Assembly (NCBI RefSeq): GCF_007991655.1
Contig: NZ_BJYT01000001.1
Span: 682,001 to 746,000, forward strand
Direction: 5' to 3'
DNA length: 64,000 bases
Origin: Segetibacter aerophilus
Lineage (GTDB): Bacteria; Bacteroidota; Bacteroidia; Chitinophagales; Chitinophagaceae
In this document: in pieces, positions 3,821 through 60,814 of the stretch
Position numbering within the stretch: position 1 is the stretch's first letter
How the letters are laid out: every line of letters starts with the position of its first letter
The notes under the pieces: model-generated
Seen by the model: only the letters and a program-made list of their open reading frames with translations
Told to the model about the DNA's origin: nothing
Databases searched by the model: none
Position numbers and translations under genes: made by a program

Positions 3821-5548
3821 ATGGATGCTGCTATTTTAGAAAAAGCAAATGTATGGTTGAACGGAAATTATGACCAGGCGACGAAAGATGAAATCAGGCA
3901 TTTGCAGGAGACTGCTCCTGACGAACTTGCTGAGTCATTTTATCGAAGCCTCGAATTCGGAACGGGAGGGCTGCGGGGAATAATGGGAGTTGGTACGAAC
4001 CGGATGAATAAATATACTGTTGGCATGGCGACGCAGGGATTTGCTAACTACCTGAAAAGTGTGTATGGAACTGCAGAGATAAAAGTTGCAATTGCCCATG
4101 ACTGTCGCAATAACAGCCGTTTTTTTGCTGAAACTACGGCCAATGTTTTTGCAGCAAATGGCATTAAAGTCTATCTTTTTGAGGCACTAAGACCAACACC
4201 GGAATTGTCTTACACCATTCGCCATCTTGGTTGTCAAGCCGGCGTTGTTTTGACTGCATCACATAATCCGAAAGAGTATAATGGATATAAAGCTTATTGG
4301 AACGATGGTGGACAGCTCGTGCCACCACACGATAAGAACGTAATAAAAGAAGTAGACGCCATTACCAGCGTTGATGAAGTGTTGTTTACCGGCGGAGAAG
4401 AAAATATCTCGATACTAGGTAAGGGAATGGATGACGCTTTTATTGATATGGTAAAAAGCCTCAGCATTTATCCTGATGTGATTGAAAAGCAAAAAGACCT
4501 TAAAATCGTTTATACCCCGATACACGGTACCGGCATTACGTTGATGCCACAAGTGCTCGAACGCTTCGGCTTTACCAACGTTACGATCGTTGAAGAACAG
4601 GCAACACCAGATGGCAACTTTCCCACCGTTGTTTATCCAAACCCCGAGGAAAGTGAGGCGATGAGCATTGGGCTCAAAAAAGCGAAGGAGATCGATGCAG
4701 ACATTTTATTAGGCACCGATCCAGATAGCGATCGTGTAGGGATTGCAATAAAAAATACCAAAGGTGAATGGGTTTTAATGAACGGAAACCAAACCGCTGT
4801 GCTCGCCTTTAACTACATGATAGAAGCAAGGAAAGTCAAAGGAATTGCACAACCGAACGATATGGTTATTAAAACCATCGTTACTACAAATTTGATTGAT
4901 GATATCGCTGCTGCAAGTGGCGTAACATGTTATAATGTACTGACCGGTTTCAAATGGATCGCGGAATTGATTACAGAAAAGTTGGGCAAGGAGAATTACA
5001 TAATTGGGGGAGAAGAAAGTTATGGCCTGATGATAGGAGATAAGATCAGGGATAAAGATGCAATTTCTGCCGTCGCCATACTGTGTGAAATGGCAGCTTA
5101 CCAGAAGAACCAGGGACAAAGCCTGTTTGAGAAATTGATTGATCTGTATGTGCAATATGGCTATTATAAGGAGGGACTTATTTCAATAACTAAAAAAGGG
5201 ATGCGTGGAGCTGAAGAGATTGCTGAGATGATGCAAGGTTTTAGAGACAATCCTCCGGCTACCATTAATGGCTCTCCGGTAGTGCAATTGCTGGACTATC
5301 AAACCCAAGTTGGAAAAAATCTGCAAGGTGGAAATGTCTGGGATATAGAATTGCCGAAGAGTAACGTGCTTCAGTTTATTTTAGAAGATGGTTCGAAAAT
5401 ATCTGCTCGCCCCAGCGGCACTGAACCTAAGATCAAATTTTACTTCAGTGTAAAAACAAAGCTCGAAAGTGCTGAGAAGTTTGATGAAACAGAAAAGCAA
5501 ATGGATGATAAAATAAAAGCTATTATAGCCGACATGAAATTGAAATAA
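3821..5548 (+). CDS. Phosphoglucomutase / phosphomannomutase family enzyme
   Basis: Cytoplasmic alpha-D-phosphohexomutase interconverting hexose 1- and 6-phosphates (glucose and/or mannose), feeding glycolysis and cell-wall sugar synthesis. The four family signatures are in order: the phosphoserine loop TASHNPKEYNGYK (Ser147), the metal-binding loop GTDPDSDRVGIA, the sugar-specificity loop GGEESYG, and the phosphate-binding loop RPSGTEPKIKFY near the C-terminus. Length 575 matches the PGM2-like branch common in Bacteroidetes and Firmicutes. Glucose versus mannose preference cannot be read from sequence. A terminator hairpin follows. Confidence 0.95.
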   Translation: MDAAILEKANVWLNGNYDQATKDEIRHLQETAPDELAESFYRSLEFGTGGLRGIMGVGTNRMNKYTVGMATQGFANYLKSVYGTAEIKVAIAHDCRNNSRFFAETTANVFAANGIKVYLFEALRPTPELSYTIRHLGCQAGVVLTASHNPKEYNGYKAYWNDGGQLVPPHDKNVIKEVDAITSVDEVLFTGGEENISILGKGMDDAFIDMVKSLSIYPDVIEKQKDLKIVYTPIHGTGITLMPQVLERFGFTNVTIVEEQATPDGNFPTVVYPNPEESEAMSIGLKKAKEIDADILLGTDPDSDRVGIAIKNTKGEWVLMNGNQTAVLAFNYMIEARKVKGIAQPNDMVIKTIVTTNLIDDIAAASGVTCYNVLTGFKWIAELITEKLGKENYIIGGEESYGLMIGDKIRDKDAISAVAILCEMAAYQKNQGQSLFEKLIDLYVQYGYYKEGLISITKKGMRGAEEIAEMMQGFRDNPPATINGSPVVQLLDYQTQVGKNLQGGNVWDIELPKSNVLQFILEDGSKISARPSGTEPKIKFYFSVKTKLESAEKFDETEKQMDDKIKAIIADMKLK

Positions 5549-5572
5549 ATAAGAATCTGTGTCAAATAGCTT

Positions 5573-5607
5573 CAAAGAAGGCTGTCTAAAAAAGGCAGCC
5601 TTCTTTG
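5573..5607. terminator. Bidirectional terminator hairpin
   Basis: A 12-bp perfect stem (CAAAGAAGGCTG / CAGCCTTCTTTG) lies between two convergent genes. Its core, AAGGCTGTCTAA...GGCAGCCTT, recurs in inverted orientation at 60956-60983. Confidence 0.75.
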
Positions 5608-5643
5608 ATTTTAGCCCGCATGTACCAAATAGGTTTGCATCTG

Positions 5644-5666
5644 AAGGGAGTGACACAACGATGCTG
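5644..5666 (+). repeat. Intergenic repeat copy
   Basis: GGGAGTGACACAACGATGCTG, identical over the core to the right arm at 1572-1592. It sits between convergent genes, about 90 bases beyond the PorP-family stop. No facing arm was found nearby. Confidence 0.75.
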
Positions 5667-5753
5667 CTATGAAAAGCAACCGTTGGAACGGAAATCAAAA
5701 AATCTATTTTAGCTTAAGCTAATCCAGTAGTAAAAACTAAGTTCAGAAAGCTT

Positions 5754-6755
5754 TTAAAATTTTGGACAAGGAAGCCCGTGGGAACCCGGAGTCTTTTTGA
5801 TATAAATAAGAGAAATTTCTATACCGCCTCTAGACTGCGAGGCTGCTTTCAAAGAAGATGTATTCACATCGTAAGTAGCGCCCAAACGAAAATTGCTAAA
5901 CTCGAGACCGATATAAGGAATTAAGGCATCGTTTAATCTTGCCCATCCACCGAAGTAAATACTTGTTGGTTTGTCGCCTTCTGCAAAAGGAACTTCGTAC
6001 GCACCTCCAAACACAGTTTCAGCTGCCCCTGCCTGAATACTATACAATGCACTCAAGTGAATTGTACCATTGTTACCGACCGGAAAATATCCACCGCCAT
6101 GAAACGTAGTGCGTGGATTTAGCAAGAAGAAAGTCCCTGTAAAGTGTTGCTTTGGCCTGGTTATATGGTACATTGAAATGCCTGCGTAGAAATTATTTTT
6201 ATCAGTGGTACTGCCGCTGTAAAGGACTCCGGCATTTAGATCGAAATAATTATTTTTAAGAGTGGAGCTATTAAAAACTTCAGAAGTTGTACCGGTAAAA
6301 CCAAAGGGCGTTAGCTGGTCTTCAAATTTAAGATCCGCAACATTCAGCAGCATATTGCTGTACGTTGCCTGAAAGCCGGCTCCGATTTGAGAAAATCCGT
6401 CCTCATCCAAACCTTTATGAAAGGCTGTTGATACTGACAAGTAATTAAACTTGAGCGCACTGTTAGCACTTTGATCAGAAAAACCCATAATGCCAACTCC
6501 CCATGTGTCTGTGGAAGAAATGCGATTGCGCAAAATGGGCATGTCAGCGGAAACGGTTGTTGTAGTGAATGCGCGATTTATGGTAGGCCATTGGTTTCTG
6601 TAATTTCCCGTGACGCGCAAGTCGCCATCAAACTTTCCTGTGAGGGCAGGGTTCAACGTTAGAGGGGATGCAAAAAACTGGGAGAAGTGAGGGTCCTGAG
6701 CCTCCACCTTGTGCAGCAAGCAAAGAAAAAATAATACTAGAAAAACTTTTGGCAT
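5754..6755 (-). CDS. PorP/SprF family type IX secretion system membrane protein
   Basis: Predicted outer-membrane protein of the PorP/SprF family, which in Bacteroidetes supports type IX secretion or gliding-motility adhesin export. It starts with a signal peptide (cleavage after VEA), then the family opening QDPHFSQFFASPLTLNPALTG with the NPA(L/Y)TG core and the YRNQWP segment. The rest alternates Gly/aromatic beta strands typical of a barrel. Length 333 is typical. Orphan PorP/SprF paralogues are numerous and are often paired with a large secreted partner; none is adjacent here, so its specific cargo is unknown. Confidence 0.9.
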   Translation of the reverse strand: MPKVFLVLFFLCLLHKVEAQDPHFSQFFASPLTLNPALTGKFDGDLRVTGNYRNQWPTINRAFTTTTVSADMPILRNRISSTDTWGVGIMGFSDQSANSALKFNYLSVSTAFHKGLDEDGFSQIGAGFQATYSNMLLNVADLKFEDQLTPFGFTGTTSEVFNSSTLKNNYFDLNAGVLYSGSTTDKNNFYAGISMYHITRPKQHFTGTFFLLNPRTTFHGGGYFPVGNNGTIHLSALYSIQAGAAETVFGGAYEVPFAEGDKPTSIYFGGWARLNDALIPYIGLEFSNFRLGATYDVNTSSLKAASQSRGGIEISLIYIKKTPGSHGLPCPKF

Positions 6756-6828
6756 TAATGGTGGTTAACTGTTTTAATAGACATATCTAATATACAACAT
6801 GTTGCTTTAGCTCGACATTTTCCTGCAA

Positions 6829-53659: not shown

Positions 53660-54913
53660 CTACACATTGCTCTGCCTTATTCTGATAAAATTTGAAATCC
53701 ATTGGAAGGCTACAAAGCCTACAAGAAAAAGTATCGAGAAGATATTCAGTGGGTCGGATGTAATAAAGGCCTGTATAATTCCTAGAACACCCAAAAGAAA
53801 CATAACGGCCGAATAAATGACAAGCTTGTTTTTATTCGCCGATTCCGAGAACATAGAGCCGAGAGGAACCATCATTGCAAAACCAAATGCAGCAACCAGC
53901 AACCAGTTGGGGTTGGAGAGGGTTAGGTAGAGAATTACACCGATCAAACAAACCGCTAAACTTACACCTACGAAATCTGAACTCAGCCTTTCCCGTTTAT
54001 CTAACAGGTATTTGCCGTACGGATTGAACCGAAGAAATAAATTACTTATGGGAGTAATTACCCACGTTGAAAACGCAAACAGCGCAATCAGGATCATGAA
54101 AGGAATAAGGATCGGTTGAAGACCTTCATACCTTTTAGCAAGTACATTTAATAGCCTTGTTGTAAGATAGAAACCAATAATAGCGGCCCATTGATTTTTC
54201 TTGGCCAGGTTACCCATAAAGAAAGCATACTTTAAAAAAAGACGATAAAACAAGTACTTAGCTTTCAACGCCTGCGCCATGCCTGATTGTGCATGCTGAA
54301 GGTTTGGATCATTTTTAAGTGCTTCCCTGAAATGTTCTAAAGCCTTTTTATGGTCGCCTTTTTCAAGCAGGCCCCACCCATAATTTGAGTGCGTATAAGC
54401 ATTGTTTGGATCCTGGGCTAGTGCACCTTCAATAGTGCTAAAGGAGTCTTCCTTCCTATTTAATTTCAGCAATGCAGTGCTTCTGATGTTAAGCCCCAAA
54501 ATATTTTCCGGGTCACGCTCAAGGGCTTCATCTGCCAGTTCTAAAGATTTTGCGTATTGTTTTCTGGTAAGCTTTATAGAAGCCCAAAGTGCAAAGTAGT
54601 CTGCTTCGTTAGGGTCGAGGCCTACCGCTGTTTGCAGATTGGCTTCTGCTTCGTTATAATTGTTCTTGCGGATCGCAACACTTGCCTTAACATAAAACAA
54701 ATAAGCAGAGTCGGGGCTAAGGCCGATGGCACTATCGATCAACTCTTCCGCCTCTTTTAAGTCTTCCAGCTGCAGCTTAACCTGAGACAGCATTGCCAGT
54801 ACAAACACGTTGTTAGGATCCTGGCTAAGAATGTTTCTTAGTAAAGTTCCCGCCTCGTCGTACCTGTTTTGCTGCAGCAGTATTTGTGCCCTTTGAATTA
54901 GGTTGTCAGCCAT
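53660..54913 (-). CDS. TPR protein with C-terminal membrane segments
   Basis: A 417-residue protein. Residues 1-220 hold about six TPR units (IQRAQILLQQNRYDEAGTLLRNILSQDPNN, EEALIDSAIGL-like, NPYN-spaced). The C-terminal half carries four to five hydrophobic helices (FMILIALFAFSTWVI, LAVCLIGVILYLTL, WLLVAAFGFAMMVPL, LVIYSAVMFLLGVLGIIQAFI, FSILFLVGFVAFQWI). No enzyme motif is seen. It begins 2 bp after the stop of the upstream TPR-AAA ATPase gene, so the two are surely co-transcribed and probably form a membrane-docked chaperone-like system. Confidence 0.85.
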   Translation of the reverse strand: MADNLIQRAQILLQQNRYDEAGTLLRNILSQDPNNVFVLAMLSQVKLQLEDLKEAEELIDSAIGLSPDSAYLFYVKASVAIRKNNYNEAEANLQTAVGLDPNEADYFALWASIKLTRKQYAKSLELADEALERDPENILGLNIRSTALLKLNRKEDSFSTIEGALAQDPNNAYTHSNYGWGLLEKGDHKKALEHFREALKNDPNLQHAQSGMAQALKAKYLFYRLFLKYAFFMGNLAKKNQWAAIIGFYLTTRLLNVLAKRYEGLQPILIPFMILIALFAFSTWVITPISNLFLRFNPYGKYLLDKRERLSSDFVGVSLAVCLIGVILYLTLSNPNWLLVAAFGFAMMVPLGSMFSESANKNKLVIYSAVMFLLGVLGIIQAFITSDPLNIFSILFLVGFVAFQWISNFIRIRQSNV

Positions 54914-54915
54914 TA

Positions 54916-56232
54916 CTATTTTTTAATTTTCATATGCGTTAAGATGTCGTCGTATAGCCCGGAGTCATTTGCAAATAAGGCAAAGTTTTTTGCCGTGGCG
55001 AACCATTCCGTTGTACTTGCCTTATGCTTTTTTATCGCATTTAGGATATCCTTTGTCGAAAGGGGTTTCGGAATGCCATCGTTGAAAGATGCTTCGAGCT
55101 TTTCCTCAATAGCAATATCAATAATAGCCTCGATGTCGGCCCCAGAATAATTTTCTATTTTAGAAGCGAGGCCTTTATAATCTATTGCTTCAATTGGCTT
55201 ATTCTTTAGTTTTAGTTTCAAAATAGACTCCCGCGCTTCTGCATCTGGAGGGGGAATGAAAATGATTCGATCAAACCTGCCTGGTCTTCTAAATGCAGAG
55301 TCGAGATGCCAGGGAGTATTTGTAGCGCCAAGGATAAGAACACCATCGTTGTCGCCATCTATACCGTCCAACTCCTGCAGAAACTGGTTGATCAAATGTC
55401 TGCCGCTTGATTGTTTCATGTCGCTCCTGCTGGCTCCAAGGGCATCTATCTCGTCGAAGAATAATACACATGGTGTATTCTGCCTTGCAATCTCGAAAAT
55501 GTTGTGTAGGTTCTTTTCACTATTTCCCACCCACATGTCGAGGATATCGCTAAGGCCCACACTAATAAAACGAGCATTTACCTGTCCTGCTGTTGCCTTA
55601 GCAATGTAAGTTTTGCCGCAGCCCGGAGGGCCATACAAAAGAATTCCTCCGCCGGTTTTTTTCCCGTAAGCTTTATATAGTTCCGGGTGCTGAAGTGGTC
55701 GAATAATTTTTAGCTCGATCTCTTTTTTGATTCCATTCATTCCACCGACATCATCAAAATTAATATCGGCTTTTTGAATGAAAGGTGACTCGAATTCTTC
55801 ATCATCTTCATCTTCATCATCTTCCATCATTGATGCGTTCAAACGTAGTTCTTTGTCAAGTTCATCATCCCGGAAGGAAGGATTTATTGCAAGTGCCCGC
55901 TTATAAATTTCTGTTGCCTTAGAGATAGCATGTTCTTTTAAAAGTGCCTTGGCATGAAGGATAAGTACATCGAAATCGCCAGAACCGGTATGAATAAGTT
56001 CTTCCAGTATAACGTTGCACTGGGAATATTGCGCCTTAAGGAAGAACAATTTAGCCAGTCCTATTTTCGATTGATTAGTGTCAGCCATCGCCATTATTTC
56101 TTTATACTCTTTTTCAGCTTCATCAAGTTGAGAAGCTTTTAATAAAGTATCAGCAAGATGTTGTTTTAGCGGAATATTTCCGGGTGAAAATTTCAGCGCT
56201 TCTCTCAAGCTGTTTATTGTATTGTCATCCAT
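54916..56232 (-). CDS. TPR plus AAA+ ATPase (CDC48/SpoVK-like)
   Basis: A 438-residue ATPase. Two or three N-terminal TPR units (about residues 10-120) are followed by an acidic linker (MMEDDEDEDDEEFESP). The AAA+ module has Walker A GPPGCGKT at 201-208, Walker B VLFFDEIDAL, sensor-1 Asn in LGATNTP, and arginine fingers in FRRPGRFDR. Only one AAA module and no protease domain is present. It probably remodels or disassembles protein complexes bound through the TPR domains, with the adjacent membrane TPR protein as anchor. The pair is not one I can name. Confidence 0.9.
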   Translation of the reverse strand: MDDNTINSLREALKFSPGNIPLKQHLADTLLKASQLDEAEKEYKEIMAMADTNQSKIGLAKLFFLKAQYSQCNVILEELIHTGSGDFDVLILHAKALLKEHAISKATEIYKRALAINPSFRDDELDKELRLNASMMEDDEDEDDEEFESPFIQKADINFDDVGGMNGIKKEIELKIIRPLQHPELYKAYGKKTGGGILLYGPPGCGKTYIAKATAGQVNARFISVGLSDILDMWVGNSEKNLHNIFEIARQNTPCVLFFDEIDALGASRSDMKQSSGRHLINQFLQELDGIDGDNDGVLILGATNTPWHLDSAFRRPGRFDRIIFIPPPDAEARESILKLKLKNKPIEAIDYKGLASKIENYSGADIEAIIDIAIEEKLEASFNDGIPKPLSTKDILNAIKKHKASTTEWFATAKNFALFANDSGLYDDILTHMKIKK

Positions 56233-56404: not shown

Positions 56405-57503
56405 ATGACACAAGAACAAATTAAGGAAATGAGAGACCGGGTTTTGGTCTTAAGGAGGTTTCTTTGACGTCGATAATAGACAGGCCAAAATAGATCACGA
56501 CAAGCAACTTTCACTTTCTCCCGGCTTTTGGGATGATAACGCCCGTGCTACAGGGATTTTAAAAGAAATAAAACTAAGCGAGTTCTGGACAAAGCTTTAC
56601 CATGCCGTAGAAACGGCAGTAGAGGATTTTGCCGTGCTCTTTGAATTTTGGAAGGCTGGCGAGGCAAGTGAGGAAGAAGCTAAAGAAGCTTATACACAAG
56701 CAATCGCGGCTATAGAAGAAGCAGAATTTAAAAGCACACTGAACGAGCCGGAAGATGAATTGACTGCCATCATGCAAATCAACCCTGGGGCTGGTGGTAC
56801 CGAAAGCCAGGACTGGGCAGAAATGCTGATGAGGATGTATCGAATGTACGGCCAAAAGCAGGGCTGGAACGTGACAGAGCTTGACTTGCAGGAGGGTGAT
56901 GGAGCCGGCATTAAAAGTGCTACCCTTCAATTTGAAGGAGCTTTTGCCTATGGCTTTCTGAAAGCCGAAAGTGGAGTACATCGCCTTGTGAGAATTTCTC
57001 CGTTTGATAGTAATGCGCGCCGACATACGTCTTTTGCAAGCGTTTATGTTTACCCTCTTATTGATGACACCATTGAGATTGAAGTCAACCCCAGTGATGT
57101 AGAATGGGCTTTTTTTAGAAGTGGGGGCGCAGGCGGACAAAACGTAAATAAGGTTGAAACTGCAGTACGTTTGACGCACAAACCTTCAGGCATTATAGTG
57201 GAATGCCAGCAGGCGCGTACGCAAGGCGAAAACCGTGAGAAGGCAATGAAGATGCTGAAGAGCCGGTTGCATGAAGAAGAAATGCGCAAGCGTGAAGCGA
57301 TAAAAAATGCCAGCAACGCCAGTAAGAAAAAGATAGAGTGGGGTAGCCAGATCCGCTCCTATGTTTTCCATCCTTACAAAATGATTAAGGACCACAGAAC
57401 CGATTACGAAGTAGGTAATGTTGGCCCCGTGATGGATGGTGACTTAGATGGATTTATTAAAGCTTACCTAATGATGCAAAAGGAAGAAGAAGCGGCAACG
57501 TAA
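56405..57503 (+). CDS. prfB: Peptide chain release factor 2, with programmed +1 frameshift
   Basis: RF2 recognises UGA and UAA and triggers peptide release. The frame from the ATG runs 20 codons to an in-frame TGA at 56465-56467; a +1 slip on CTT (56462-56464), skipping T56465, continues at GAC 56466 to the stop at 57503. The slippery CTT-TGA-C is preceded by AGGAGG at 56453-56458, a Shine-Dalgarno-like stimulator, as in E. coli. The joined product has 365 residues. The SPF anticodon tripeptide ([11 protein letters not shown]) and catalytic GGQ ([21 protein letters not shown]) are intact. The frameshift makes synthesis self-limiting when RF2 is abundant. Confidence 0.97.
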
Positions 57504-57623: not shown

Positions 57624-58787
57624 TTAGGGAGTTCTGGTTTTATTCTTTTCAACCAAGTACTCCAGCCACAACGTCTTATTATATGCAGGACAGTAGAAGT
57701 AGTAGTTTATATAGCTCCAGTGAAGAAAGATTTGTTTAAAGGGAGTTGGGTATGAAAAGGCTGGTCTCGCCTGGAAGAAAAGGTACTTTTGCTGGTTGCT
57801 TTTCTCAAATTCTTCTATTGAATTCAAATCAAGTGCCGGAGCGTCGGTTTGTAGTCTAAGCAAAGACGTCCTTAAAATAATTTGATCCATAATGTTCGTA
57901 CTTTGCTCTAATTCTTTCCTGATATCTGCTATCAGTTGTGGCTTGTAAACTTCAAGTTGAGGTATTTTAAAGGCACCCATCAGGCGACACAAATGATACA
58001 ATAAAACTGGCGTCTTTACATAATATGGTGAGATATAAACCGGTCTCTTTTTATAGTACCTGTTTTTAACCATCTCCGTTATATAATCAATTGTAGCTGT
58101 GTCTTGGCTAACCCACCGCAAACCTTTCTCGAGCATAAAATACATAATATTACATTGAACAGAGAAGTCGAAATCGGGCGTCATTTTTAAGCCCATCCAT
58201 GTGCTGTAAGCAGGTAGGTCTCTGTACCTCCTGAAAGTAGAAATTATCCTTCTGCGGCTTAGGTTGCTCACGCCAACCATCCTTTTCTTGGCAATCGCGT
58301 TTACACTGTCGTTATTGTCTGAAGTCATTAAGATCATTACCGTATCATCGGCATCTTCGCCCTGTCCAAAAACGACCTTTAAATATTTAAAGTAATAGGT
58401 GTGCGGCATGATAGGCGCATATGTTGGCCAGAAGTTATAAAACGGGTAACCGAACCTGTTCCTAAAATTTGGATAAGTTGAAGAGGCCTTCAAAACAATG
58501 TTCTTCGCAACGGCTTTAGTTTGATCATTGAGATGGGGAAGCATGTTTTTAAAGGCAAATGCGGTAATAGCCGTAAAAAAAATATTATTATCGGGTTGAA
58601 GATTATGAGGAACTCCGCCACATTCTCTCGTGCCGTAAAACATTCCCGCATAAAATTCACCATCATCTTGTTTTACCTGCATCGCAGCGATATTCCTGAC
58701 TAAAGCGTCGATGAGGGTTGAGTCATTATTGGCAAAAGCGTAAAATGAAAAAGATGAAAAGAGTATGACGAAAAGTGTTTTTCTCAT
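57624..58787 (-). CDS. Exported alpha-toroid protein with class II terpene cyclase-type DxDDT motif
   Basis: A 387-residue protein with a clear signal peptide (about residues 1-20, YAFAN). The rest is helical and Trp/Tyr rich. At 145-149 it carries DADDT, flanked by GQGE and VMILM, which is the acid motif of class II terpene cyclases (DxDD, as in squalene-hopene and copalyl-type cyclases). A second toroid-like block DFDFSVQCNIMYFMLEKG lies at 205-222. It is much shorter than squalene-hopene cyclase and is secreted, so catalysis is not assured; it could be a degenerate alpha/alpha-barrel. It lies 59 bp downstream of a class I isoprenoid-like gene on the same strand. Confidence 0.65.
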   Translation of the reverse strand: MRKTLFVILFSSFSFYAFANNDSTLIDALVRNIAAMQVKQDDGEFYAGMFYGTRECGGVPHNLQPDNNIFFTAITAFAFKNMLPHLNDQTKAVAKNIVLKASSTYPNFRNRFGYPFYNFWPTYAPIMPHTYYFKYLKVVFGQGEDADDTVMILMTSDNNDSVNAIAKKRMVGVSNLSRRRIISTFRRYRDLPAYSTWMGLKMTPDFDFSVQCNIMYFMLEKGLRWVSQDTATIDYITEMVKNRYYKKRPVYISPYYVKTPVLLYHLCRLMGAFKIPQLEVYKPQLIADIRKELEQSTNIMDQIILRTSLLRLQTDAPALDLNSIEEFEKSNQQKYLFFQARPAFSYPTPFKQIFLHWSYINYYFYCPAYNKTLWLEYLVEKNKTRTP

Positions 58788-58846
58788 ATTGAATTTATTG
58801 TCACAAAAAGTCTCAAACTAGCAATCTATATAATTTACAAAAAGGC

Positions 58847-59839
58847 TTAGGTAAGCTTTGGAAGTTTATAAGAATAATACAGCCACCTCATCATGTTTTT
58901 CGGTTTTTCCATATCGCACACCAATTGCTTTCGGGTGAGTGTTGCATAGTTTAGTGGTTTACCTAACTGCTGCTCTAACTGAATCATTTTGTCAATTACA
59001 ACCATGCTCCTGCTGATGATAAGATGCATGGCGACAGCAAATTCTTCCTTCTTATGTTGTTTATAAGGAAGAGCATAAATGAGCCTGTTACATTCTTTAA
59101 CTCTGTCCAGAAAAATCTCCTTCAGCTTCTTATAATCAGTACATCTATCCGGAAGGGTAGTGATGCCATCGCGAAGGTCTTTGGCCATATCGAAAAGGTC
59201 GTTGCCAAATTGCATTAAACTTCCCACATAAAACAAAACTTGCCACATTTCCTTGCTAGCGGGCTTCGCCATAATTTGGTGATAGATGATCACAGAATAG
59301 CCTCCTTTGGCATAGGTTATTCGTGTAAGTTCTTTATCGTCTATTGCGGGATCAGTTTGTTTAATAGTCTCAAGTTGTACTTCAAATACGTCTTTTGCAG
59401 CGTCCAGGTATTCGTTTCGATGCGGCACATCTGTAAGCATAAAAGATTGTATCTCCCTGGCAATATGTGCTGAAAAAGTTTTAGCATCGTAGCTTTCAGG
59501 CCGATAGGTAATTGCATTGATTGCTGCTACATCAAGCTTGTCTATATCAAATAAGTCATCTCCAACCGGCGTTAAAATTCCAAATAAGGTTGCTCTTTTT
59601 CTTTCAGCCTCTGTATAGTTTTCATGATATAAATTCTTATAGCTCGAGCAGAGAATAGTAGGAATAAACAAGCCATAATACTGACGTATTTTCTTCAATT
59701 GCTCATCCTCAAATTTGCCTGAATACTTTCTTTCTAATTCGCCGAGATAAGGGTTTAGAAAAGTACGAATGTAATCCTGTTGCTTTTTCAATTCTTTCCT
59801 GAACCTGGTAATGGTTTTTATATATGAGAGGATTATCAT
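58847..59839 (-). CDS. Class I isoprenoid/terpene synthase-like protein
   Basis: A 330-residue all-helical, cytoplasmic-looking protein with no signal peptide. The first Asp-rich motif is GDDLFDID at 93-100 (DDLFD fits DDxxD), and the second is QFGNDLFDMAKDLRDGITTLPD at 210-231, resembling the second metal site of phytoene/squalene synthases (QxxNxxxDxxxDxxxGxxxLP). The spacing of about 115 residues is consistent with a class I terpenoid fold. The substrate may be a prenyl diphosphate. It is the first gene of the two-gene unit with the DxDDT protein. The leader holds two small inverted repeats (59883-59899; 59941-59970). Confidence 0.7.
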   Translation of the reverse strand: MIILSYIKTITRFRKELKKQQDYIRTFLNPYLGELERKYSGKFEDEQLKKIRQYYGLFIPTILCSSYKNLYHENYTEAERKRATLFGILTPVGDDLFDIDKLDVAAINAITYRPESYDAKTFSAHIAREIQSFMLTDVPHRNEYLDAAKDVFEVQLETIKQTDPAIDDKELTRITYAKGGYSVIIYHQIMAKPASKEMWQVLFYVGSLMQFGNDLFDMAKDLRDGITTLPDRCTDYKKLKEIFLDRVKECNRLIYALPYKQHKKEEFAVAMHLIISRSMVVIDKMIQLEQQLGKPLNYATLTRKQLVCDMEKPKNMMRWLYYSYKLPKLT

Positions 59840-60028: not shown

Positions 60029-60814
60029 ATGAGAAGTAAAGCTCACATCAAAAGTCATCCAATACATCCCATATTGGTTTGTTTTCCGCTTGCATTTTAT
60101 ATAGGCACTTTATTGTTCGACTCTCTACGTATTATTAAAGATGACATTGCTTTCGGATTGACCGGACAGTACCTCCATTCAGCCGGAATAATTGCGGCTC
60201 TGTGCGCTGCAATTCCCGGTATCATTGATTACACCTATACGGTTCCCCCTAAAAGTTCCGCTAAGAAACGCGCAGCAACACATGGCTTTGTAAATACTTC
60301 AGTGCTCCTGATTTTTTGCATTGCTTTATACTGCAAGCATATTGATAATTTTCCACCTTACATCGTTCTGGCCATGGAGTTTATTGGAGTCGTACTAACT
60401 GGTTATGCCGGTTGGCTTGGAGGAACATTGGTTCACCGAAACCAAATTGGAATTGATGTGAGATACGCAGGAGCGGGCAAATGGCAAGAACAATATTTCG
60501 AAGAATCTACAGGTCGGTTAGAAGTGTGTGCGAGTGACGAACTGCAGGTTGACCAGATGAAACTGATCCATGCCAAAGACAAGCGAATTGTAGTTGCCCG
60601 GACGGGACACGGTTTTGTTGCTTTCGACGATCGCTGTTCTCACAAGGGTGGATCTCTTGCGGGTGGCGCCATGATTTGCGGTACCGTTCAATGTCCATGG
60701 CACGGGACACAATTTGACGTAAAGACGGGCGAGGTTAAAGCAGGGCCCGCAACAGAAAAAATTAAAACATACGAGGTTACCGAAGGCCAGGGGAAAGTGT
60801 ACCTGGTTTTGTAA
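60029..60814 (+). CDS. DUF2231 membrane domain fused to a Rieske [2Fe-2S] domain
   Basis: A 261-residue protein. Residues about 8-140 are a DUF2231 four-helix membrane domain (HPIHPILVCFPLAFYIGTLLFDSL). The C-terminal soluble Rieske domain has CSHKGG (Cys203, His205) and CPWHG (Cys222, His225), the full cluster-ligand set. It resembles ferredoxin-type Rieske proteins that carry electrons to oxygenases or respiratory chains. No oxygenase is adjacent. A hairpin lies downstream. Confidence 0.9.
   Translation: MRSKAHIKSHPIHPILVCFPLAFYIGTLLFDSLRIIKDDIAFGLTGQYLHSAGIIAALCAAIPGIIDYTYTVPPKSSAKKRAATHGFVNTSVLLIFCIALYCKHIDNFPPYIVLAMEFIGVVLTGYAGWLGGTLVHRNQIGIDVRYAGAGKWQEQYFEESTGRLEVCASDELQVDQMKLIHAKDKRIVVARTGHGFVAFDDRCSHKGGSLAGGAMICGTVQCPWHGTQFDVKTGEVKAGPATEKIKTYEVTEGQGKVYLVL

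Follow-up and report, generated by a model that had tools for sequence, protein, structure and literature searches.

A gene pair in Segetibacter aerophilus joining a class I isoprenoid synthase-like protein to a predicted exported homologue of class II terpene cyclases

We found two adjacent genes in Segetibacter aerophilus, referred to here as A and B, that probably form a two-gene terpenoid unit in which A makes a lipophilic isoprenoid inside the cell and B cyclizes it outside the cytoplasm. We assign this reading, in which the enzymatic activities and the order of the two steps are inferred, a probability of about 0.6. The computed folds of both proteins, the conservation of their catalytic residues, the homology of B to the drimane synthases AsDMS and AstC, the adjacency and co-occurrence of the two genes, and the export signal on B are each supported by computation.

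The pair lies in the window, the 64,000-nucleotide stretch of S. aerophilus DNA that was analysed (Table 1). In the open reading frame list A is upstream of B, head to tail on the same strand, and the two presumably constitute a single transcription unit. The flanking genes, prfB (assigned by eye) on one side and a DUF2231/Rieske gene on the other, lie on the plus strand. Scans for promoters and terminators gave no more matches than shuffled sequence. When the window genes were compared with those of Segetibacter sp. RYN_277 (locus L068), dN was 0.13 and dS 1.89 for A, and dN was 0.08 for B, for which dS was not computable and was taken as saturated; these values fit purifying selection on both genes. 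Neither protein reached the cut-off of any Pfam or NCBIfam model, so domain searches with these collections would miss the unit.

Table 1. Positions of the A-B pair and its main features in the window
Feature	Position	Strand	Basis
Gene A, encoding a 330-aa protein with the class I isoprenoid synthase fold	58847-59839	minus	ORF, AlphaFold, PDB folds, motifs
DDLFD, first Asp-rich motif of A, residues 94-98	59546-59560	minus	sequence and conservation
QxxNDxxDxxxD, second metal motif of A, residues 210-221	59177-59212	minus	sequence and conservation
A-B intergenic gap, 59 nt	58788-58846	minus	ORF coordinates
Gene B, encoding a 387-aa homologue of class II terpene cyclases (TC-beta) that stands alone and is predicted to be exported	57624-58787	minus	ORF, AlphaFold, folds, profile
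Signal peptide of B, approximately residues 1-19, predicted cleavage after AFA	58731-58787	minus	sequence
Acid motif DADDT in B (residues 145-149), with D147 as predicted general acid	58341-58355	minus	conservation and AsDMS alignment
B residue N213, matching AstC N324	58149-58151	minus	62/64 conserved and profile register
B residue Y256, matching AsDMS Y427 and AstC Y361	58020-58022	minus	64/64 conserved and profile register

Relationship of B to TC-beta cyclases and its export signal

Searches of Pfam and NCBIfam and a single-sequence search of the PDB returned chance-level matches only for window B, and PADLOC gave a weak match only (best E 0.0013). The squalene-hopene cyclase (SHC) family PF13243 matched neither window B (E up to 10) nor nine members of its family (E up to 1). 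In the AlphaFold model of B (pLDDT 82.7, pTM 0.85), local confidence was lower at residues 51-70 (pLDDT 63-69), at residues 331-360 (60-74), and around the acid motif (residues 111-150, 62-76). The best fold match was the C-terminal part (TC-beta) of the drimenol synthase AsDMS (Foldseek E 4.2e-8), which VIA aligned with a Z of 27.3 over 299 residues (rmsd 4.1). Further VIA matches were MstE (Z 22.9, 293 aligned, rmsd 3.2), 6ij1 (22.8), the small SHC-like structures 8paj (22.5) and 8pak (22.0), and the SHC 2sqc (21.6). Glycosidases, epimerases, and complement proteins were also among the fold matches of B. Some of these other toroids came close, namely cellobiose epimerases, with Z up to 18.1, and an unsaturated glucuronyl hydrolase (Foldseek E 1.2e-4), and some true class II enzymes scored no better than the epimerases (6vpt, Z 18.0; human OSC, 16.5-18.5).

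Sequence profiles pointed to the same group of enzymes. Profile A6, built from 15 rows of which 14 share 16-62% identity with window B, found AsDMS in the PDB at E 1.3e-8 and fungal AstC at E 1.2e-4 by sequence alone. Profile A1, restricted to B proteins of the window's family, matched none of the class II cyclases in the PDB, and among single distant B members searched there, one reached AsDMS at E 0.3 and another found nothing. In the A6 alignment, the DADDT of B falls on DLDTT of AsDMS (D331 and D333; entry 9mhs) and Y255-Y256 on Y426-Y427, while the AstC row has an N-Y spacing of 37 residues that matches N324/Y361. According to the published reports, mutants of D331, D333, and Y427 (e.g., Y427F) lost all activity in AsDMS (PMC12365925), and N324A and Y361F abolished activity in AstC (PMC13244436).

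The acid motif of B reads GEDADDTVM in context (D145-x-D147-D148-T149). Conservation was scored in 64 non-redundant homologues, drawn from 120 hits after those shorter than 300 residues were dropped and with near-copies such as L087 and L088 kept. D145, D147, and Y256 were present in 64/64, N213 in 62/64, and D148 in 59/64; the conserved positions are the D, D, and Y that are essential in AsDMS and the N and Y that are essential in AstC. Computation thus supports B as a homologue of the TC-beta domain of the HAD-TC-beta drimane synthases, with which it shares the TC-beta fold, sequence homology, and the D-x-D/N/Y acid network. The first-pass annotation had described B as a class II cyclase-like toroid with a DxDDT motif, which the AsDMS match and the invariant residues bear out; the relationship to TC-beta goes beyond it.

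B differs from AsDMS and AstC in several respects. It lacks a HAD domain (no Pfam HAD match), its toroid following directly after the signal peptide; the positions that anchor the diphosphate are not basic in B; and it has a signal peptide and a class I partner. As a single-domain alpha/alpha toroid it resembles the monodomain class II cyclases MstE and 8paj/8pak (VIA Z 22.0-22.9), none of which was matched by sequence in single-sequence or profile searches of the PDB. MstE and 8paj/8pak are not known to be exported. The AsDMS authors describe merosterolic acid synthase as a monodomain class II cyclase and propose that the HAD fusion arose from the TC-beta domain.

The N-terminus of B, MRKTLFVILFSSFSFYAFA with NN after the predicted cleavage site, was recognized as a Sec-type signal peptide by inspection and a simple rule. 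A signal peptide was seen in 53/53 B copies from Chitinophagaceae and close relatives, 49 of them by the rule and 4 by eye (L043, L053, L055, and L107, missed by the rule through start choice or threshold), and in 0/11 copies from families f29, f32, and f48. Four of the 53 (L070, L076, L077, and L086) come from Bacteroidetes records that are close relatives of Chitinophagaceae. The N-termini of these 53 copies combine a basic n-region with a hydrophobic stretch, and many then show a junction of the A-x-A|Q type. Among the copies examined, the signal peptide, already noticed at first pass, is confined to Chitinophagaceae and close relatives. Given 53/53 against 0/11, export is plausibly a relocation in the Chitinophagaceae lineage, the direction of change being assumed. 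One B copy from outside Chitinophagaceae (L116) contains an in-frame TGA.

The same copies were compared at the positions that hold the substrate diphosphate in AsDMS and AstC. B position 203, the counterpart of AsDMS R378 and AstC K314, is P, T, V, H, A, or Q in 50/53 exported copies (Thr in the window) and Arg in 3/11 unexported copies, those of f48. Position 368, likely the counterpart of AsDMS R513 if the C-terminal register holds, is A, T, V, G, or S in 53/53 exported copies. As judged from these alignments, the diphosphate anchors of AsDMS and AstC are not kept in B. A Lys or Arg at position 201, near the phosphate site, is found in 45/53 exported copies and might stand in for the anchor, in which case a charged substrate head group would be possible.

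Fold and metal motifs of A

Window A carries GDDLFD at residues 93-98 and QFGNDLFDMAKD at residues 210-221, and has no visible signal peptide. Its Pfam and NCBIfam matches were at chance level, a single-sequence search of the PDB gave no credible match, and the polyprenyl synthase family PF00348 did not match it at E up to 10. When 19 A homologues were searched against Pfam at E up to 1, three matched Terpene_synth_C weakly (best E 0.0031) and one matched polyprenyl_synt weakly (E 0.021). PADLOC likewise gave a weak match only (best E 0.0019).

The AlphaFold model of A is all-helical (pLDDT 90.4, pTM 0.88). Almost all of the 50 PDB matches listed by Foldseek were class I isoprenoid synthases with a probability of about 1.00, at modest E-values (best 4.3e-3, none below 1e-3 among the matches listed), and they span several class I branches, including squalene synthase and CrtM. 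All 50 matches listed by VIA-align were class I isoprenoid synthases or prenyltransferases (Z 14.1-15.6). The class IB structures 5yo8 and 6loo came top (Z 15.6, 274 residues aligned with an rmsd of 4.0) and shared that place with MoeN5, Sat1646, BjKS, and polyprenyl synthases; these Z values barely exceed 14, the level that the tool gives helical models without clear matches. On the predicted structure, then, it is fairly clear that A has the class I isoprenoid synthase fold, as proposed at first pass, but not to which branch it belongs.

Both metal motifs named in the first-pass annotation are present and well conserved. Across 46 non-redundant homologues (from 93 hits, with stretches shorter than 240 residues dropped), the second motif retains D214, D217, and D221 in 46/46 and Q210 in 45/46, with N213 in 41/46 and D at that position in four. 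The first motif retains D94 in 45/46, D95 in 41/46, and D98 in 44/46. Some distant copies (L144, L146) have degenerate metal motifs.

A had also been likened to head-to-head prenyl synthases, and this part was not supported. A shares the class I fold with the squalene/phytoene synthases, and CrtM and squalene synthase are among its Foldseek matches, but SQS_PSY (PF00494) matched neither window A (E up to 10) nor any of 19 members (E up to 1), the fold matches mix class I branches, and the genome carries an SQS_PSY gene distinct from A. We dropped head-to-head synthesis as a reading of A for lack of support.

Linkage of A and B across genomes

A pattern-based scan of genome contigs with a B alignment yielded 22 named loci. 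In 21 of these A lies directly upstream of B on the same strand, and the remaining contig stops at the edge of B. The gap between the genes in the 21 loci ranges from -40 to 209 nt and is below 80 nt in 18/21, with start codons as called. Parafilimonas terrae DSM 28286, Limnovirga soli KCS-6, and Ilyomonas limi 17mud1-8 are cultured strains with the pair.

The two genes also co-occur. Among 244 genomes of the window's family, 47 had both genes, 9 had B only, 36 had A only, and 152 had neither (p 9e-19, kinship ignored), with A present in 47/56 genomes that carry B. A phylum set of 395 genomes gave 7 with both, 9 with B only, 3 with A only, and 376 with neither (p 4.6e-9, kinship again ignored); in this wider sampling f29 and f48 have B without A, and f32 has both in the genome at separate sites. 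Within the 244 family genomes, 22/74 B copies lie beside A (less than 2000 nt away on one contig) and 52/74 lie apart, a count of adjacency that is understated because of fragmented assemblies. The 74 copies leave out G214 and G217, fragments of copies already counted. Of the 22 adjacent pairs, 18 have A followed by B on the same strand and four are convergent. On a tree of A, the B-linked label needs four changes, three of them forced by well-supported branches, so the linkage does not go back to a single chance event passed on by descent; deep placements in this tree are uncertain owing to several long branches. The first-pass annotation had asked whether the pair is conserved, which these loci and genomes answer in its favour, and had named missing folds, variable Asp motifs, and a lack of co-occurrence as outcomes that would speak against it; none of the three was found.

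Proposed pathway, alternatives and genomic setting

We propose the following sequence of steps. A, a cytoplasmic class I terpene synthase-like enzyme, would ionize a prenyl diphosphate with the help of metal ions and release into the inner membrane a lipophilic product, which could be a hydrocarbon, an alcohol, or a first-ring compound. Exported B would then use D147, helped by D145, N213, and Y256, to protonate the terminal alkene of the membrane-borne isoprenoid, and would drive ring closure on the periplasmic side. We infer that both enzymes are active, that the product of A is the substrate of B, and that this substrate carries no diphosphate. Prenyl diphosphates should be available, since the window genome has two polyprenyl synthases besides its SQS_PSY gene and an SQS/PSY enzyme was found in 13 of 15 genomes checked, these being 15 of the 22 with adjacent genes. 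None of the 15 had an SHC above cut-off, with one sub-threshold match.

The idea that Chitinophagaceae have relocated a class II cyclase, so that A delivers an isoprenoid to the membrane and B, once exported, builds rings on the periplasmic or outer-membrane side, is tentative, and we put it at just short of even odds. It would raise the question of whether membrane lipids can undergo acid-initiated terpene cyclization outside the cytoplasm. As far as we know, no earlier case of extracytoplasmic terpene cyclization has been described, and the pair would give bacteria that lack a squalene-hopene cyclase a new way of making polycyclic envelope lipids. If active, A and B would add two enzyme families to terpenoid biosynthesis, and B-type proteins would be stand-alone relatives of the TC-beta domain.

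The class I then class II logic has a precedent in the Bacillus sesquarterpene route, where the class IB terpene synthase YtpB is followed by the class II cyclase SqhC, which is not known to be exported. Class IB enzymes are among the tied top folds of A, but A matches no such Pfam family and the 15 pair-bearing genomes checked lack an SHC above cut-off. Among the papers retrieved by searches of the open-access literature, no title or abstract opening described an exported terpene cyclase or an A-B pair. Non-canonical class I synthases of other kinds are reported from actinomycetes (PMC11234867), and a term search of the main text of that report found no Chitinophag, Bacteroid, or Flavobacter.

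Both proteins could instead be active but not in sequence, with A making a cytoplasmic terpene of its own and B modifying another periplasm-facing isoprenoid, for which the undecaprenyl carrier, the menaquinone tail, or a carotenoid would be candidates. The B copies that lie apart from A (52/74) and the B genomes without detectable A (9/56) fit such a separation. The Lys or Arg at position 201 could bind a phosphate head, and the SQS/PSY enzymes of pair-bearing genomes make other isoprenoid lipids likely. Set against this are the strong co-occurrence and the repeated adjacency, convergent pairs included, and the divergence of B at the positions that anchor diphosphate in AsDMS and AstC. On balance we regard independent action as unlikely, though worth keeping in view.

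B could also be a non-catalytic or differently catalytic alpha/alpha-toroid, for instance one that binds or senses lipids, with its acid motif retained by descent. Export is unusual for class II cyclases, and toroids have many functions, as the glycosidases, epimerases, and complement proteins among the fold matches of B illustrate. The top-scoring folds are nevertheless class II cyclases, and the near-invariant D145, D147, Y256, and N213 correspond to residues on which the activity of AsDMS and AstC depends, which leaves this explanation with a small chance of being correct.

It is similarly improbable that A is a chain-elongating prenyltransferase giving a polyprenyl diphosphate and that the pair serves a polyprenol-lipid rather than a terpene pathway. 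An A profile matched octaprenyl-diphosphate synthase in the PDB weakly, at E 0.039 with both motifs in register, and the second motif of f32 members reads FQ(x)xDDxxD, resembling polyprenyl synthases. The match fell to E 0.38 with a wider profile, and A is for that reason placed in class I on fold and motifs and not on a sequence match. The GGKR and RR motifs with which chain-elongating synthases bind IPP are not visible in the A alignments, which favours a terpene synthase-like reaction over elongation, and the two polyprenyl synthases already in the genome also weigh against an elongating role.

Returning to the proposed two-gene terpenoid unit, we surveyed its genomic surroundings. No terpene-pathway family was found among 30 neighbour proteins scanned, including the one encoded at window positions 60029-60814, and solo A copies had no common partner among four loci examined. 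Besides A and B, 10 neighbour groups recur in 3 to 7 of 23 loci, prfB (by eye) in 7. Second B copies have recurrent neighbours that we read as synteny: an acyl-CoA dehydrogenase gene adjoins B in 8/20 loci and an Ala_racemase_N gene in 6/20.

prfB beside the pair

The gene for the class II terpene cyclase homologue (B) adjoins, in the window, a gene recognized by eye as prfB. It seems to have retained the +1 programmed frameshift classic for prfB, to judge by an AGGAGG followed by TTTCTTTGAC at 56453-56468, with an in-frame TGA; the ORF-caller start at 56634 is therefore too late. At the prfB site of a same-genus genome (L147, G004), prfB is 92% identical to that of the window, while the adjoining solo A-type gene (class I isoprenoid synthase fold) shares only 23% identity with window A, and B was not found beside it. 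This combination suggests gene exchange at the site. The two TPR-encoding genes near the pair, both assigned by eye, also lie near the pair in Segetibacter sp. RYN_277 (L068).

Features near the pair and at compared loci
Feature	Position	Strand	Remark
TPR-plus-AAA-ATPase-like gene, then TPR membrane-protein-like gene	window 53660-56232	minus	by eye
prfB	window 56405-57503		by eye; neighbour of B
Solo A-type gene and prfB	L147 (G004) 4707-6819		B absent
A-A-B: two A-type genes, then one B	G087:C1:4708650-4711821 (L052)		

Variant A and B copies

In two genomes of another family (f32), the first Asp motif of the A homologue is degenerate (L146 and L144; EGFFR and ADSWFD). Both share a neighbourhood with locus L142, in which the flanking genes resemble lepA and tyrS. 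L146 and L144 are perhaps inactive or repurposed copies.

Second, unlinked B copies (L092, L093, L094, L096-L100) are repeatedly adjoined by an acyl-CoA dehydrogenase gene, and often also by an Ala_racemase_N (YggS-like) gene. On two contigs, G152:C92 and G267:C76, B genes form tandem pairs, both members of a pair sharing one strand; these may be duplications whose copies have diverged in function.
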